From Planctomycetota bacterium (GTDB lineage: Bacteria; Planctomycetota; UBA1135), in contig JAJFFB010000170.1 of NCBI GenBank assembly GCA_021776925.1, positions 42,115 to 106,114 of the forward strand: a DNA stretch of 64,000 nucleotides, written 5' to 3'. Positions 3,023 to 63,177 of the stretch are shown in pieces (position 1 is the stretch's first letter; each line of letters begins with the position of its first letter). Position numbers and translations under genes: made by a program. The notes under the pieces were generated by a model. That model ran no database searches. It saw only the letters and a list, made by a program, of their open reading frames with translations, and was not told the DNA's origin.

Positions 3023-3451
3023 TTAGTTGACAGGAATCAATTCGTCCTTGATGGAGCTGCGGCTCCGAGCGAAGCCGTCTTGGTTCCAGGTCACGGTGTA
3101 CCTGCCGTAACCACTGGAGGCACCTTTGCGGGTCAGCTTAAGTTCCCAGCGGGTCTGCCAGTTGTAGGAGGTGAAGTTGCCAGTCGAGAAGAACTCGGGG
3201 TTCTGGAGATCCAGATCCAGGTCTTTCATCTTTTTGGCGAACTGGCCGTTGCGCGAGTTGTAACGCTCTTGGGCGGACTCGACTTGAGCAAGCCAGGCGA
3301 AAGACTCAGACGCTTTGGAGCGCTCGACGGCGGTTTGGTAACGCGGCACGGCCATCATCGCGAGCACACCGAGAATGACGACGACAATGGTAAGCTCGAC
3401 CAGCGAGAAACCGGCCTTGTCGCGGCCGTGGTTCGATTTGAGGGATTTCAT
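3023..3451 (-). CDS. Type IV pilin / pseudopilin, paralog of the neighbour
   Basis: MKSLKSNHGRDKAGFSLVELTIVVVILGVLAMMAVPRYQTAVERSKASESF; start at ATG 3449-3451. Confidence 0.87.
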   Translation of the reverse strand: MKSLKSNHGRDKAGFSLVELTIVVVILGVLAMMAVPRYQTAVERSKASESFAWLAQVESAQERYNSRNGQFAKKMKDLDLDLQNPEFFSTGNFTSYNWQTRWELKLTRKGASSGYGRYTVTWNQDGFARSRSSIKDELIPVN

Positions 3452-10300: not shown

Positions 10301-10945
10301 TCAAGAGATCAGCAGAAAATGTGCGGTCAGGAAGAAGATGACCACCGCCGAAAGGTCGGAGACCGCGATCATCAAGGGCCCGGAGACCACCGCCGGGTCG
10401 CCGCCGAGCGCCTCGGTACCCATGGCGATGCCGCTGGCGACGGTGGTGGTCCAGGTCATGGCGATGACCAGCGCCAATCCCAACGCCGACCCGATGGCGA
10501 TGGAATCGGTGAACAGCGCCGCCGTAGGCACCGCGATGATTCCGCACAGGAGTCCGAGCAGGGCTCCGACCTGCACCTCGTTGAGGAAAACGCGGGTTCG
10601 TCTGCCCTCGGATATCTGCCCCACGGCGAAACCTCGCACCAGCACCGCGGAGGTCTGCATGCCGACCGTTCCCGATAGCGCCAGCACCATCGGGATGAAG
10701 CCGATCACCGTGCTCCACACGGCGGGCTGCGCCTCGCCGAGCGGGCCGCCGTTGTCGCCGAGGAGCGCGGCGGCGGCAGGAGCGAAATGATCGACCACCC
10801 GCGACATCAGCAGACCGGCGACCACCGGGATGGCCAGCATCGGCGCGCGACTGATGACTTTGGACCTCACGGTTTCAGAAGCGTCGGCCTCGGCGCCGGC
10901 GCCGGCCAGCAGCAGGGCGTCTTCGGAACCCTCTCCTTCGAGCAC
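10301..10945 (-). CDS. MgtE C-terminal (transmembrane) half of interrupted magnesium transporter
   Basis: GLLMSRVVDHF..., GFIPMVLALSGTVGMQTSAVLVRGFAVGQ; begins with the GTG codon immediately after the TAA ending the upstream half, in the same frame. Confidence 0.85.
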   Translation of the reverse strand: MLEGEGSEDALLLAGAGAEADASETVRSKVISRAPMLAIPVVAGLLMSRVVDHFAPAAAALLGDNGGPLGEAQPAVWSTVIGFIPMVLALSGTVGMQTSAVLVRGFAVGQISEGRRTRVFLNEVQVGALLGLLCGIIAVPTAALFTDSIAIGSALGLALVIAMTWTTTVASGIAMGTEALGGDPAVVSGPLMIAVSDLSAVVIFFLTAHFLLIS

Positions 10946-11710
10946 TTAGAGGGCGTCGTCGGCGGTGACGATGCCGACCACCAGGCCGCGCGCGTCGACC
11001 ACCGGGATCGCCGACAGGTTGTAGTGCAGGATACGGTGGGCGACGTCTTCCTGGTCTTCGTCGACCTTGGCCAGGATCACGTCCGGGACCATCAGTTCGC
11101 GCACCTCCTGGTGGATCCCGCCCTCGATCAGCTCACGCGAGCTGACCACCCCGCGCAGACCGCCCTTGGCATCGGTGACGTAGATCGAGTGGATGGTCTC
11201 GGCCTCGTCGTCGGCGCGGCGGATGCGCTTGAGCAGGTCGCCGACTCGTTCATCCGGGTCGGCGGTGATGAACTCGGTGGTCATCAGGCCGCCGGCGCTG
11301 TCCGCAGGGTATTCGGACAGATGGCGCAGATCGGAGGCGTCGTCCGGCTCGACGAAACACAGCACCTGGTGGCGCACCTCGTCGGGCAGTAGATCGAGGA
11401 GGTCGGTGCCGTCGTCGGGGGGAATATGCTCGAGCAGGCGCGCGATGACCTCCGGACCCTGGCCCTCGAGCAGCGTCTCGGCCAGTTTGGGCTCGGCCTC
11501 GGCGAGCACGCCGGCCTGGTCTTCCTCGGGCAGGCTGGCCCACAGCAGCCTGGCCTGGTCGCGTTCGAACTCGAACCACAGCACGTCGGCGATATCGGCC
11601 GCGTGATGCCCCTCGTCAGGCTTGAACGCGGTGCCCCCTGGTTGCTCCAGGTGCTGCTGCAGAGCCTGGAGAACCTGATGTCGCATCTCGCGCCTGCGGT
11701 TCCGGGGCAT
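10946..11710 (-). CDS. MgtE N-terminal half (MgtE_N plus CBS pair) of interrupted magnesium transporter
   Basis: DIADVLWFEFERDQARLLWASLPEEDQAGVLAEAEPKLAETLLE, YPADSAGGLMTTEFITADPDERVGDLLKRIR, ends VVGIVTADDAL-stop. Confidence 0.87.
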   Translation of the reverse strand: MPRNRRREMRHQVLQALQQHLEQPGGTAFKPDEGHHAADIADVLWFEFERDQARLLWASLPEEDQAGVLAEAEPKLAETLLEGQGPEVIARLLEHIPPDDGTDLLDLLPDEVRHQVLCFVEPDDASDLRHLSEYPADSAGGLMTTEFITADPDERVGDLLKRIRRADDEAETIHSIYVTDAKGGLRGVVSSRELIEGGIHQEVRELMVPDVILAKVDEDQEDVAHRILHYNLSAIPVVDARGLVVGIVTADDAL

Positions 11711-11777
11711 GGACCGTATGTTAGCGGACGCCATGGCCCGATCCCGGCGGCGCACCTAGAATCAAGAGGCCGCCAAT

Positions 11778-14374: not shown

Positions 14375-15193
14375 TCACGCGGTCTCTGCGGCGAGTTTCT
14401 GCAGGCGGCGCTGGCCGAGCACGGCGGCGCCGAGTGCGGTCACCAGTTGCGGCATGTTGTCGCTGCCGTTGCCGGGTAGATTGACCTCGCTGCCCAGACG
14501 TTCGCGCACGGTGCGCGGCATGGTCGGGAAACGCATGATGCCGCCGATCAAGGTGAACTCGGCCTCGGCCTTGGCGCGTTTCATCAATTGCACCGAACGA
14601 CCGGTCAGCGACTCGATCGCGCCCTGCATGATTTCGGACGGCGGAGTGCCCAGCGAGAGCTGGTTGATGACTTCGGACTCGGCGAACACCGCGCACACGC
14701 CGGAGATCTCGACCGGCTCGCGCGAGGTCATCAAGAGCGAACCGATGTCCTCGGTCTTGTAGCCCATGTAACGCGCGGTCTTTTCCAGGAACGCGCCGGT
14801 GCCGGCGGCGCACTTGTCGTTGAGACGGAAGGATTTGACCTTGCCGTCTGCTTCGATGCGCACCGCCTTCATCGTCTGTCCGCCGACGTCGAGCACGGTA
14901 CGCGTCTGCGGAAACAGCAGGTTGGCGCCGCGCGCACTGGCGGTCAGGTCGGTGACGTGCACGTCTTTGAAATCGACCTGGTGACGGCCGAATCCGGTGG
15001 CGATGACGTAGCTGACCTGGTCAGGGCGCAGGCCGGCGAGCTCGAGCACGGTGTCGAAACTGCGGCGCGCGACCTCGGCAAGCTTGAAGCCGGTGGGCTC
15101 GACGTGGCTGTGCAGCATGTTGCCGCCTTCGTCGAGCAGAACCGCCTTGGTATAGGTCGACCCGACGTCGATTCCTGCGGTGATCGTGGTCAT
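14375..15193 (-). CDS. BadF/BadG/BcrA/BcrD-type ATPase (activase subunit 2)
   Basis: 272 aa; [67 protein letters not shown]. Confidence 0.93.
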
Positions 15194-16008
15194 GGCGAAA
15201 CCTCCTCGGTGCCGGCCGCAGTACGGCTGGCAAGAATGTGATCCATGGCGAAGAGTGCGGCGCCGAGCGCGCCCATGTAATGGCAGTCGTCGCTGACGTT
15301 GAGCTTGTGGCCGAGTGCGTCTTCGAGCGCCTTGACCATGGCGACGTTGCGCGAGACGCCACCGGTGAAAGTGATCTCGTCTTCCAGACCGACACGCCGC
15401 ATCAGGCCGAGGGAGCGGGTGGCGATCGATTCGTGTACTCCCCAAAGGATGTCGTGCACCTTTTTGCCCTTGCCCAGCCAGGCGAGCACTTCGGATTCCG
15501 CGAAGACCGTGCACGTGGTGCTGATGCGAACACCCTTATCCGACTGCAGGGCAGTGTCACCGAGGTCGTCGAGCGGGATGTCGAGCGCCGCGGAAGCAGC
15601 ACCGAGGAAACGCCCGGTGCCGGCGGCGCACTTGTCGTTCATGCAGAAATCCTCGATCTGACCGCCCGGCGAAACGCGGATTGCCTTGGTGTCCTGGCCA
15701 CCCATATCCACCACCGTGCGCGTTTGCGGAAAAAGGTGCGAGGCGCCACGCCCGTGGCAACTGATCTCGGTCACCTGGTCGTTGCCGAAGGTCACCCGGT
15801 AACGGCCGTAACCGGTGCCGATGACCCACTCGACCTCCTCTTCCAGGATGCCCTTGCTCTCAACCGCTTCCTTGAAGGCCTTCTCCGCCGCCTGCACGAC
15901 GTTGGCGCCGGTATCAAGCAACGAGCGCGCGATGATGTTGCGCTCTTCGTCGATGATCACCGCCTTGGTCTGGGTCGAACCGACGTCTACTCCTGCTGCG
16001 TATGCCAT
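15190..16008 (-). CDS. BadF/BadG/BcrA/BcrD-type ATPase (activase subunit 1)
   Basis: 272 aa; [92 protein letters not shown]. Confidence 0.93.
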
Positions 16009-16061
16009 GTTTCTGTTCCGTGTATGCCGCTGTGATTTGCTTGCGAAAGGTCTGGTGTTGC

Positions 16062-17357
16062 CTAGGACTGGATGGCGGCTTGCTTGCGCCGTGATGCCAG
16101 ACCCTCGAAGAAAGCGTCGGCCCGGTTCTTGAGCTGGGCTTCCGACACCACGCGGCGGTCCATCATGTCTGACTCGATGAACAGACTGGCGATGTCCTGA
16201 CGCTCGGACAGGGCGCGCCGTCCATCGGCGAGCCCGGTCGACACCGTGCGACAACTCTTGATCGGGTGGTAGACGATGCCGTCGACCTGGTACTCCTCGA
16301 GCATCGACTCGACCACGCTGTCGTGGTGGAACATGCTGTCCATTGCGTCGCGCACGCTGACCAGGGTGCCCTCAGCGAGACTGGCGATCGGATCGGACAG
16401 GTCGTACTGGAAGCCGCGGTTGGAGCCGCCGGAGGCGAACCACAGGTAGGTCGAGTGAACGAAGGTGCCGTTCCACTCGCTGAACAATTCATTGAAGCGA
16501 CGGAAGATCGGATAGCACGGCACGCCGACGAAGACCAGGCGGTATTCCTCTTCGGTGATGGTGCCGATGCCGTGTTCGACCTTGTATTCCATCTCTTCGA
16601 CCAGATCGGCGAAGTAGCGCGCCCCGGCCTCTTCTCCGCGGAAGCCGTTGGCGACGCCGAGGTAGATGGTGCCGTCGGTGAGCGCGTTGAACACCGACGG
16701 GCGGTTGGCGTTGAGCTCCAGCAGTCTCTTCCAGCCGCTGCTGATGCCGTTGGCGTGGCCCATGACCTCGCGCAGCCGGTCGATGTCGAACTTCTTGCCG
16801 CTGACCTCTTCGCAGGTGCGGATCAGTTCGCGGATCTGCATTTCCACGTAGTTGCGATCATTTTCAAAATCACGGTCGCCGCGCCAGGTCTGGCCGCCGA
16901 GCTGGCGCGTACCAGGAACGTCGAGGGTGACCACCGGCATCTGGTACATCCGCTCCCATGCTTCTGCCCACTTGATGTAGGTGTTGCAGGCGTTGGTCAG
17001 CACGGTGAGCGCGGGCTTCGGGATCTGCCCCATCGGATGCTGACCGCCGCGCAACTGCGTGGCGATGTCGGCCTTGACGTAGCCACAGATGTCGGGCGAA
17101 TAGCCGTAGTCCTCGGCTTCTTCGAGGTATTCGTTGGCAACCCGCCGCACCGCGGTCTGCAGCGAGTTGATCTCGGGGAACACCACCGGGAAGTCAAAGG
17201 ACTTCAACACTTCGTTGAAGCTTCCCATGACGAACACATAGGCGGCTTGTTCGCCGCGCTCGGAACAGCCGTTCAGTTCCTCGAACCATTCGCGGAACAT
17301 GCGCGCGCCATCGTTGTTGCCGCGCCCGACGATTTCATCTTTGAGGGTGTTGCTCAT
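16062..17357 (-). CDS. Benzoyl-CoA reductase / 2-hydroxyglutaryl-CoA dehydratase family subunit (BcrB/BzdO/BadE-like)
   Basis: 431 aa; [76 protein letters not shown]. Confidence 0.9.
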
Positions 17358-17370
17358 GGGTGGTTCAGGA

Positions 17371-18537
17371 TCAGGCGAAGAGGAGGTTTTCCATGAAGGT
17401 CTCGAGTTGCAACTCGAGGTCCGAGAAACTGGTCATGCGTTCTTCGAACTCGCTGACGAAATAGGGAATCGCCTTGGCCTCCAGGGCGTGGATATAGGCG
17501 ACTTGCTCTTCGAGCCCGGGCTCGCACATCTTCGCTGCAGTAACGATCACCGCCCCGGCGCCGCTGGCGCGCACGCGTTCGATCAGCATGTCCTCTTTCG
17601 GTTTGCGCAGATCGTGCTGCACCGGACTGTAGGAAGAGTCTTCGATGTAGGCGTGGGCCAGATCCTGCAGCGGGTCTTCGCCTTTGGGCACGTCGCCGAG
17701 CAGCCAGCGCAGTCCGATCAGGAAATCGTCGTCGACGACGTAGGTGGCGCGGCCGATCATGCGCACCAGATCGAGCGGCGGTTGTTCGCAGAAGGCCCCT
17801 TCATAGACCACCCGGATGCGGTCTTCGGCCTTGGCGGTGCGCGCTTCGATCAGGGGCAGCACGTACTGCATCAAGGCGTTGTGCTCCTCGCGCGGAATCA
17901 TGCCGGCGACCGCGACCAGCGCGTAGGCGTCTTCGGCGGCGATCTTCCAAGGTTCTTCGCGCTTGATCTGGTAGAGCTTGCGCAACAGGCGGCGGTTCTC
18001 GTTGAAGACGCCGATCGACTGGCGCAGGGATTGTTCGCTGACCTCACTACCGCAAACCTCTTCGATCTGGCGCATGATGCGGTCGTATTCGCCGCGCAGA
18101 TAGGTCACGCTATGGCTTGAATTCGGATTCTGCGGCAGGTACAGAATCTGGCACGGATAGTCGTGGTTGCGCGCCCAGATCGCGCTAAGGTTGCGCGCCG
18201 CGTCGCAGATCGGATGCGACACAAACATGTCCAGTTCGACCTTGCCGCCGAGAGAGAGTTCCAGCGAAGTCTTCAGGATCGAACACAGATAAGAACCGAA
18301 TCGCGAGTCGGACTGGTCAGGTGCCAGCGTCGAGCCGCGCAGTTTCAGCGGCAACATGCCAGCGGCGTGGGCGATCTCTTCAGGGAAGTAGACCTGGAAA
18401 TGGCCGAGGACCTTGCCGCCCTGTTCACGCCAGCGCGCTACGGTCGGATAGTCAGGATCCTCTGTCAGATCGCGGCACTGCAGCAGCACCTCTTCCAGAG
18501 GCTGATCGATCCAAGTATCAAAGACGGGGGTGTTCAT
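17371..18537 (-). CDS. Benzoyl-CoA reductase / 2-hydroxyglutaryl-CoA dehydratase family subunit (BcrC/BzdN/BadD-like)
   Basis: 388 aa; VYFPEEIAHAAGMLPLKLRG, GSYLCSILKTSLEL, VSHPICDAARNLSAIWARN, TAAKMCEPGLEEQ: three conserved-position Cys for an FeS cluster. Confidence 0.9.
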   Translation of the reverse strand: MNTPVFDTWIDQPLEEVLLQCRDLTEDPDYPTVARWREQGGKVLGHFQVYFPEEIAHAAGMLPLKLRGSTLAPDQSDSRFGSYLCSILKTSLELSLGGKVELDMFVSHPICDAARNLSAIWARNHDYPCQILYLPQNPNSSHSVTYLRGEYDRIMRQIEEVCGSEVSEQSLRQSIGVFNENRRLLRKLYQIKREEPWKIAAEDAYALVAVAGMIPREEHNALMQYVLPLIEARTAKAEDRIRVVYEGAFCEQPPLDLVRMIGRATYVVDDDFLIGLRWLLGDVPKGEDPLQDLAHAYIEDSSYSPVQHDLRKPKEDMLIERVRASGAGAVIVTAAKMCEPGLEEQVAYIHALEAKAIPYFVSEFEERMTSFSDLELQLETFMENLLFA

Positions 18538-61476: not shown

Positions 61477-62070
61477 ATGGATTCTCTGCAGAACCTCGAT
61501 TCTGATGCGCTCGCCGAACGCCTGCTGGTTTCGGTGGGCACCAGCACGTGGCCCCCGGTGCACACCGCGGTCGAGTGGGCCAAGGAAAAGCACCACGGGC
61601 AGCTGCGCCGCGATGGCAGCGACTTTCCTTGCCACCCGCTGCGCGTGGCGGTGATTCTGCACGAGTTCTGTGGTCAGAACGACGCCAACGTGTTGTGCAC
61701 CGCGCTGCTGCACGACCTACTCGAAGACACCGAGGTCGACTACGACGACATCGCCGAGGTCTTCGGCAACAAAGTCGCCGACGAGGTGCGCTCGCTGACC
61801 CTGCAGGAACCGCGCGATGGGCAGTCGAAGTACGACCGCAACATCAGCCACTTCGAAACGCTGCGCTGGGAAGGCCGCGACGTGCAGATCGTGCGCAGCG
61901 CCGACCGCCTCGACAACATCATGACCTTGCCCGAGGCCGAGGTTTACCCGCGCCGCGACGAATTCCTGCGCGAAACCCGCGAGGGCCTGCTGCCGCTGAC
62001 CCTCGCCGTCAACACTACTCTGTACCACGCGCTCGATGGTGCGTTGGCTGCAGCTGGTTGTCCTGCCTGA
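61477..62070 (+). CDS. HD-domain hydrolase of the SpoT/MESH1 type
   Basis: HHGQLRRDGSDFPCHPLRVAVILHEFCGQNDANVLCTALLHDLLEDTEVDYDDIAEVFGNKVADEVRSLT; no synthetase domain. Confidence 0.85.
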   Translation: MDSLQNLDSDALAERLLVSVGTSTWPPVHTAVEWAKEKHHGQLRRDGSDFPCHPLRVAVILHEFCGQNDANVLCTALLHDLLEDTEVDYDDIAEVFGNKVADEVRSLTLQEPRDGQSKYDRNISHFETLRWEGRDVQIVRSADRLDNIMTLPEAEVYPRRDEFLRETREGLLPLTLAVNTTLYHALDGALAAAGCPA

Positions 62071-62081
62071 AAATTGAAACG

Positions 62082-63177
62082 ATGAAACTCCTCCTCGACC
62101 GCGCCGCTGAGATCGAACGCCGCCTGCAGCAGATCGGAGGCCGGCTTTGACTACGCCGGTAATCTGAAACAAAAGGAAGAACTGGAAGCCGCGATGGCCA
62201 AGCCGAGTTTCTGGGACAACCAGGAACGGGCGCAGGGGGTCATCAGCAAGATGAAGCTGGTGCGTGCGGTGGTCGACCCGATCGACGAGGCGCGCGCCGA
62301 GCTCGAGGACATCCGAGCGCTGGGCGAACTCGGCGAGGAGATGGGGGAAGAGGAAGTCGAAGCCGACCTCGAAGTGATGGTGCTCGACGCCGAAAGCCGC
62401 ATGGAGAAGCTCGAGTTCCAGGTCATGCTCGGTGGTGAGAACGATCATCGCAACGCGTTTCTGACCGTTCAGGCCGGCGCCGGCGGCACCGATGCCGCAG
62501 ACTTCGCGCTGATGCTGCAGCGCATGTACCTGCGCTGGGTCGAGCGTCGCGGTTTCGATGCCGAGCTGATCGAGATCACCGAGTCGGACGAAGGCGGGAT
62601 TCGCCACTCGACCTTCCTGATCAAGGGCCCCTACGCCTACGGCTACTTGAAGGCCGAGCGCGGGGTGCACCGGCTGGTGCGCATCTCGCCCTACGACGCG
62701 CAGGCGCGGCGGCAGACCTCCTTCGCCGCGGTCGAGGCGACACCCGAGTTCGACGCCGACGCGCCGATCGAGATCAACATGGACGAAGTGCGCGTCGACA
62801 CCTACCGCGCCGGCGGCGCCGGCGGGCAGCACGTCAACAAGACCGACTCGGCGGTGCGCATGACCCACGAGCCGACCGGCATCGTGGTGCAGTGCCAGAA
62901 CGAACGCAGCCAGCACAAGAACCGCGCCACCGCCACACGCATGCTGATGTCGAAGCTGTTCGAGCTGCGCGAACGCGAGCGCGACGACGAGCTGAAGAAG
63001 ATGTACGGGCAGAAGGGCGAGATCGCCTGGGGCTCGCAGATCCGCTCCTACGTGCTCAACCCCTACCAGATGGTCAAGGACCACCGCACCAATCACGAGA
63101 CCGGCAACACCCAGGCCGTGCTCGACGGTGACCTCGACACCTTCATCGAGGAATACCTGCGCTCGAAATCTTCGTAG
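62082..63177 (+). CDS. prfB: Peptide chain release factor 2 with programmed +1 frameshift (join 62082..62147, 62149..63177)
   Basis: ATG at 62082, in-frame GGAGG...CTT TGA C at 62136-62151, then +1 frame [24 protein letters not shown]...; [37 protein letters not shown]. Confidence 0.95.

Follow-up and report, generated by a model that had tools for sequence, protein, structure and literature searches.

The MgtE magnesium channel (TIGR00400) combines an N domain (PF03448), a pair of CBS domains and a transmembrane domain (PF01769), and Asp250 of Thermus thermophilus MgtE has been placed in the Mg5 sensing site, which links the CBS domain to the plug helix (PMC5882242). Transmembrane-only versions are known as SLC41-like proteins and as constructs of the isolated domain, which has been crystallised (PMC5529423; PDB 4u9l and others). 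Removal of the N domain from other MgtE proteins disturbs gating or uptake: in one case it made E. coli hypersensitive to cobalt and nickel (PMC5529423), and in another the vertebrate cells used as a test grew poorly (PMC3435302). A second described system relevant here is the termination-reinitiation coupled gene pair, in which a stop and a possible start adjoin on one message; pairs spaced 0–6 nt apart are found, and coupled restart can operate over very short gaps, the common layout being an overlap of 4 or 1 nt (PMC10666635). Here, we compare both systems with a planctomycete mgtE gene that is interrupted by one stop codon, located in a 64,000-nucleotide stretch of DNA (the window) from a draft genome (4.59 Mb, 203 contigs, estimated to be 87% complete).

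An in-frame stop divides a collinear mgtE frame

The mgtE gene (10301–11755, minus strand) reads in one frame throughout, with a likely ATG start at 11686 and the longest frame opening at GTG 11755. A single in-frame TAA at 10948–10946 (minus strand; 10946..10948) interrupts it, and no further stop is present from 11755 to 10304. Around the stop, the minus strand reads GTC GGC ATC GTC ACC GCC GAC GAC GCC CTC TAA GTG CTC GAA GGA GAG, such that a GTG (10943..10945) follows the TAA directly, in frame, at distance 0 and without overlap. The upstream half (10946..11755) contains the MgtE_N domain (residues 51–152) and two CBS domains (best stretch 218–269) by Pfam, whereas the plug helix and the MgtE transmembrane domain (PF01769) lie after the TAA in the downstream half (10301..10945). 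All of these domains are collinear and score above Pfam cut-offs, but the TAA divides them between two open frames. Since GC at third codon positions is high in both halves (0.87 before the stop and 0.84 after, similar to the nearest relative, L003), the coding pattern is kept across the stop, and the frame did not arise simply by chance.

When read through, the product (484 residues) has the domain order and length of MgtE, aligns end to end with the T. thermophilus protein and is up to 69% identical to its relatives, although its score against TIGR00400 (229.8) falls slightly below the equivalog cut-off of 232.75. What sets it apart from the described channel is the in-frame TAA at the Asp250 column (2yvx chain residue 273 minus a 23-residue tag, counted from the alignment). 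An initial sequence-only reading had described two otherwise intact halves, collinear with a full MgtE and separated by one TAA with a GTG directly after it at the junction between the CBS domains and the plug helix; the sequence, the domain order and the alignment bear out this description, and the assignment of Asp250 to the Mg5 site makes the placement at the junction right.

Close relatives encode glutamate at the stop site

The codon at the stop site is GAA or GAG (Glu) in all 24 other family genomes with a close full-length MgtE, and the two nearest relatives (69% and 68% identical) both have GAA. This agrees with the earlier suggestion that a single G-to-T change from GAA could yield the stop. 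The codon after the glutamate encodes valine in all 24 relatives and is written GTG in five of them (L003, L012, L016, L019 and L024); the GTG is thus an inherited Val codon of intact genes and, as a candidate restart codon, needs no special explanation.

Wider searches covered 154 class genomes and 394 phylum genomes (overlapping sets), with roughly the best 150 matched places listed for each, and no other class or phylum homologue among the matches listed has a stop at the mgtE TAA site. Another species of the class (L035, G071:C35) has an internal TAG in mgtE near residue 154 of the match, in the part that separates the N domain from the CBS region. This TAG is an unrelated, independent one-off, and a sporadic nonsense codon in mgtE is accordingly rare and not unique, with no recurrence at the present site among the matches listed. 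Four further flagged stops (G005, G348, G175 and G506) fall among the first dozen matched residues, upstream of the likely start, and leave the protein uninterrupted. A scan of the whole-genome collection returned two loci only, both in Planctomycetota MAGs and both from close relatives in the 24-genome comparison, and the plasmid collection gave no match.

Because no relative has a stop at the same position, the most likely explanation is that the copy broke recently or that the sequence is in error, ahead of a natural two-piece channel. We consider it very probable that the TAA is an isolated single-base substitution, GAA to TAA on the coding strand, and that this full-length mgtE is normal in other respects; the substitution would be either a young null allele or a consensus error. 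The position of the stop speaks against such a chance origin, as it lies near the border between two domains with a possible start codon next to it, just as a functional split would look. However, one base change would turn any of 86 of the 484 mgtE codons into a stop, four of them within the 19-codon junction, which makes the position only mildly unusual.

Both halves of the frame appear constrained

Of the columns invariant in other family members, mgtE keeps 41/42 before the stop and 44/44 after it (stop column excluded). Nei-Gojobori estimates of dN/dS against L003 are 0.239/0.702 (~0.34) for the upstream half and 0.278/0.885 (~0.31) for the downstream half, and the terminal branches of mgtE are ordinary, not long for the family. 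Judged from these substitution patterns, both halves appear to be still evolving as parts of one constrained protein, which makes the nonsense change young, if real. Two functional halves would likewise stay constrained, so that constraint by itself is also compatible with a split; the pattern nevertheless suits a substitution that is very recent or erroneous. An old mgtE pseudogene in decay would account for one disabling stop, but the retained invariant residues, dN/dS near 0.3 in both halves, the ordinary branches and the lack of a second stop or frameshift make such decay highly improbable.

Decoding and restart signals at the stop

Programmed or tRNA-suppressed readthrough of the TAA would deliver a full-length MgtE, and the intact frame beyond the stop is what such decoding would leave. 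The genome argues against it: none of 94 domain matches (44 ABC and 50 sulfatase) contains an internal stop, and the 39 tRNA genes found all have ordinary anticodons with no UUA among them, an absence that is not absolute at 87% completeness. The genome accordingly shows no sign of TAA reassignment, and TAA also terminates several predicted genes within the window. Shuffled sequences fold as stably as the RNA surrounding the stop (z 0.72) and, as the stop is not conserved either, readthrough has very little probability in our assessment.

Another alternative, also proposed in the sequence-only reading, is a two-polypeptide MgtE. Ribosomes would stop at the TAA and restart at the adjoining GTG, and the N-CBS part would become a soluble sensor, with the plug and pore made as a protein of their own. 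The in-frame GTG at distance 0 suits the short spacing at which coupled restart is physically possible (PMC10666635), and a small amount of the pore half might be made by this route; the crystallised transmembrane domain also counts in favor of a pore half standing by itself. The local signals point the other way. No Shine-Dalgarno sequence precedes the GTG; the 20 bases upstream give a duplex energy of +0.4 kcal/mol with the anti-Shine-Dalgarno, which is among the weakest values in the window (rank 50/54 of its predicted gene starts, some of which are mechanical guesses). Unlike described termination-reinitiation pairs, mgtE also lacks the usual 4 or 1 nt overlap, its stop is found in 0/24 close relatives and its start is an ancestral internal valine. 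If made, the downstream half would resemble a transmembrane-only MgtE, although we found no evidence for its production here, and the reported effects of N-domain removal weigh against a free pore. Taken together, we regard a split channel as improbable. We give slightly less credence still to the bolder proposal that the magnesium channel of this lineage has just come apart, with the CBS sensor set free and the pore translated separately by stop-GTG reinitiation, which would make the channel unclamped or regulated in trans.

When the window was scanned naively for interrupted frames, antisense frames of the GC-rich DNA dominated the output. In a retrained gene set, inspected by eye, no further pair of neighbours in the window shared a frame in the manner of the mgtE halves.

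The window also contains several other features. The release factor 2 gene prfB, at 62058–62200 (plus strand) with PCRF and RF-1 domains in 62194–63177, has a textbook +1 programmed frameshift site, a GGAGG-like element followed by CTT TGA C at ~62145–62151. At 14375–18537 (minus strand), two BcrAD/BadFG ATPases adjoin two proteins of the HGD-D type (2-hydroxyglutaryl-CoA dehydratase D) and form with them a cluster of the 2-hydroxyacyl-CoA dehydratase or benzoyl-CoA reductase type. Two neighbouring pilin-like genes at 2498–2929 and 3023–3451 (minus strand) have a nearly identical N-terminal methylation motif (FSLVELTIVVVILGVL); at the cut-off used, Pfam N_methyl matches only the second gene.

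Discussion

Of the four origins first put forward for the mgtE stop, a recent nonsense mutation from GAA and a sequencing error fit all of the evidence, including the GAA or GAG codons of the relatives, an outcome that the sequence-only reading had itself named as one that would count against a designed restart. The two-polypeptide and readthrough options gained nothing from the analysis: relatives lack the stop, the adjoining GTG is inherited and has no Shine-Dalgarno sequence, and neither a suppressor tRNA nor another in-frame stop in the sampled domain matches was detected. Within the favored explanation of an isolated substitution, it is somewhat probable that the assembled cell or strain population carries a young loss-of-function mgtE allele; a consensus or assembly error at the stop base, in a genome this fragmented, is distinctly less likely but has a fair share of the remaining weight. 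The stop, its absence from relatives at this site, the conservation of both halves and the intact corA are direct observations, from which we infer the direction of change (GAA to TAA), its youth and the loss of function.

If the stop is real, translation would terminate after the second CBS domain and the transmembrane pore would be made little or not at all. No PF01769 gene besides the interrupted mgtE was detected in this 87% complete draft, and an intact corA is present on another contig; magnesium uptake would then rest on CorA, which could cover it. Poor regulation would be expected of a pore half produced by itself. No Rfam family was found in the window, so no listed magnesium riboswitch is present there.

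With glutamate in all close relatives and an inherited GTG, the mgtE stop appears ordinary, and the comparison removes the novelty of a split gene. Its importance lies in little beyond annotation: the two open frames should be annotated as a single mgtE that contains a nonsense codon, real or erroneous, and not as two genes. For similar cases, the lesson is that a start codon adjoining a stop may be a mere inherited sense codon.
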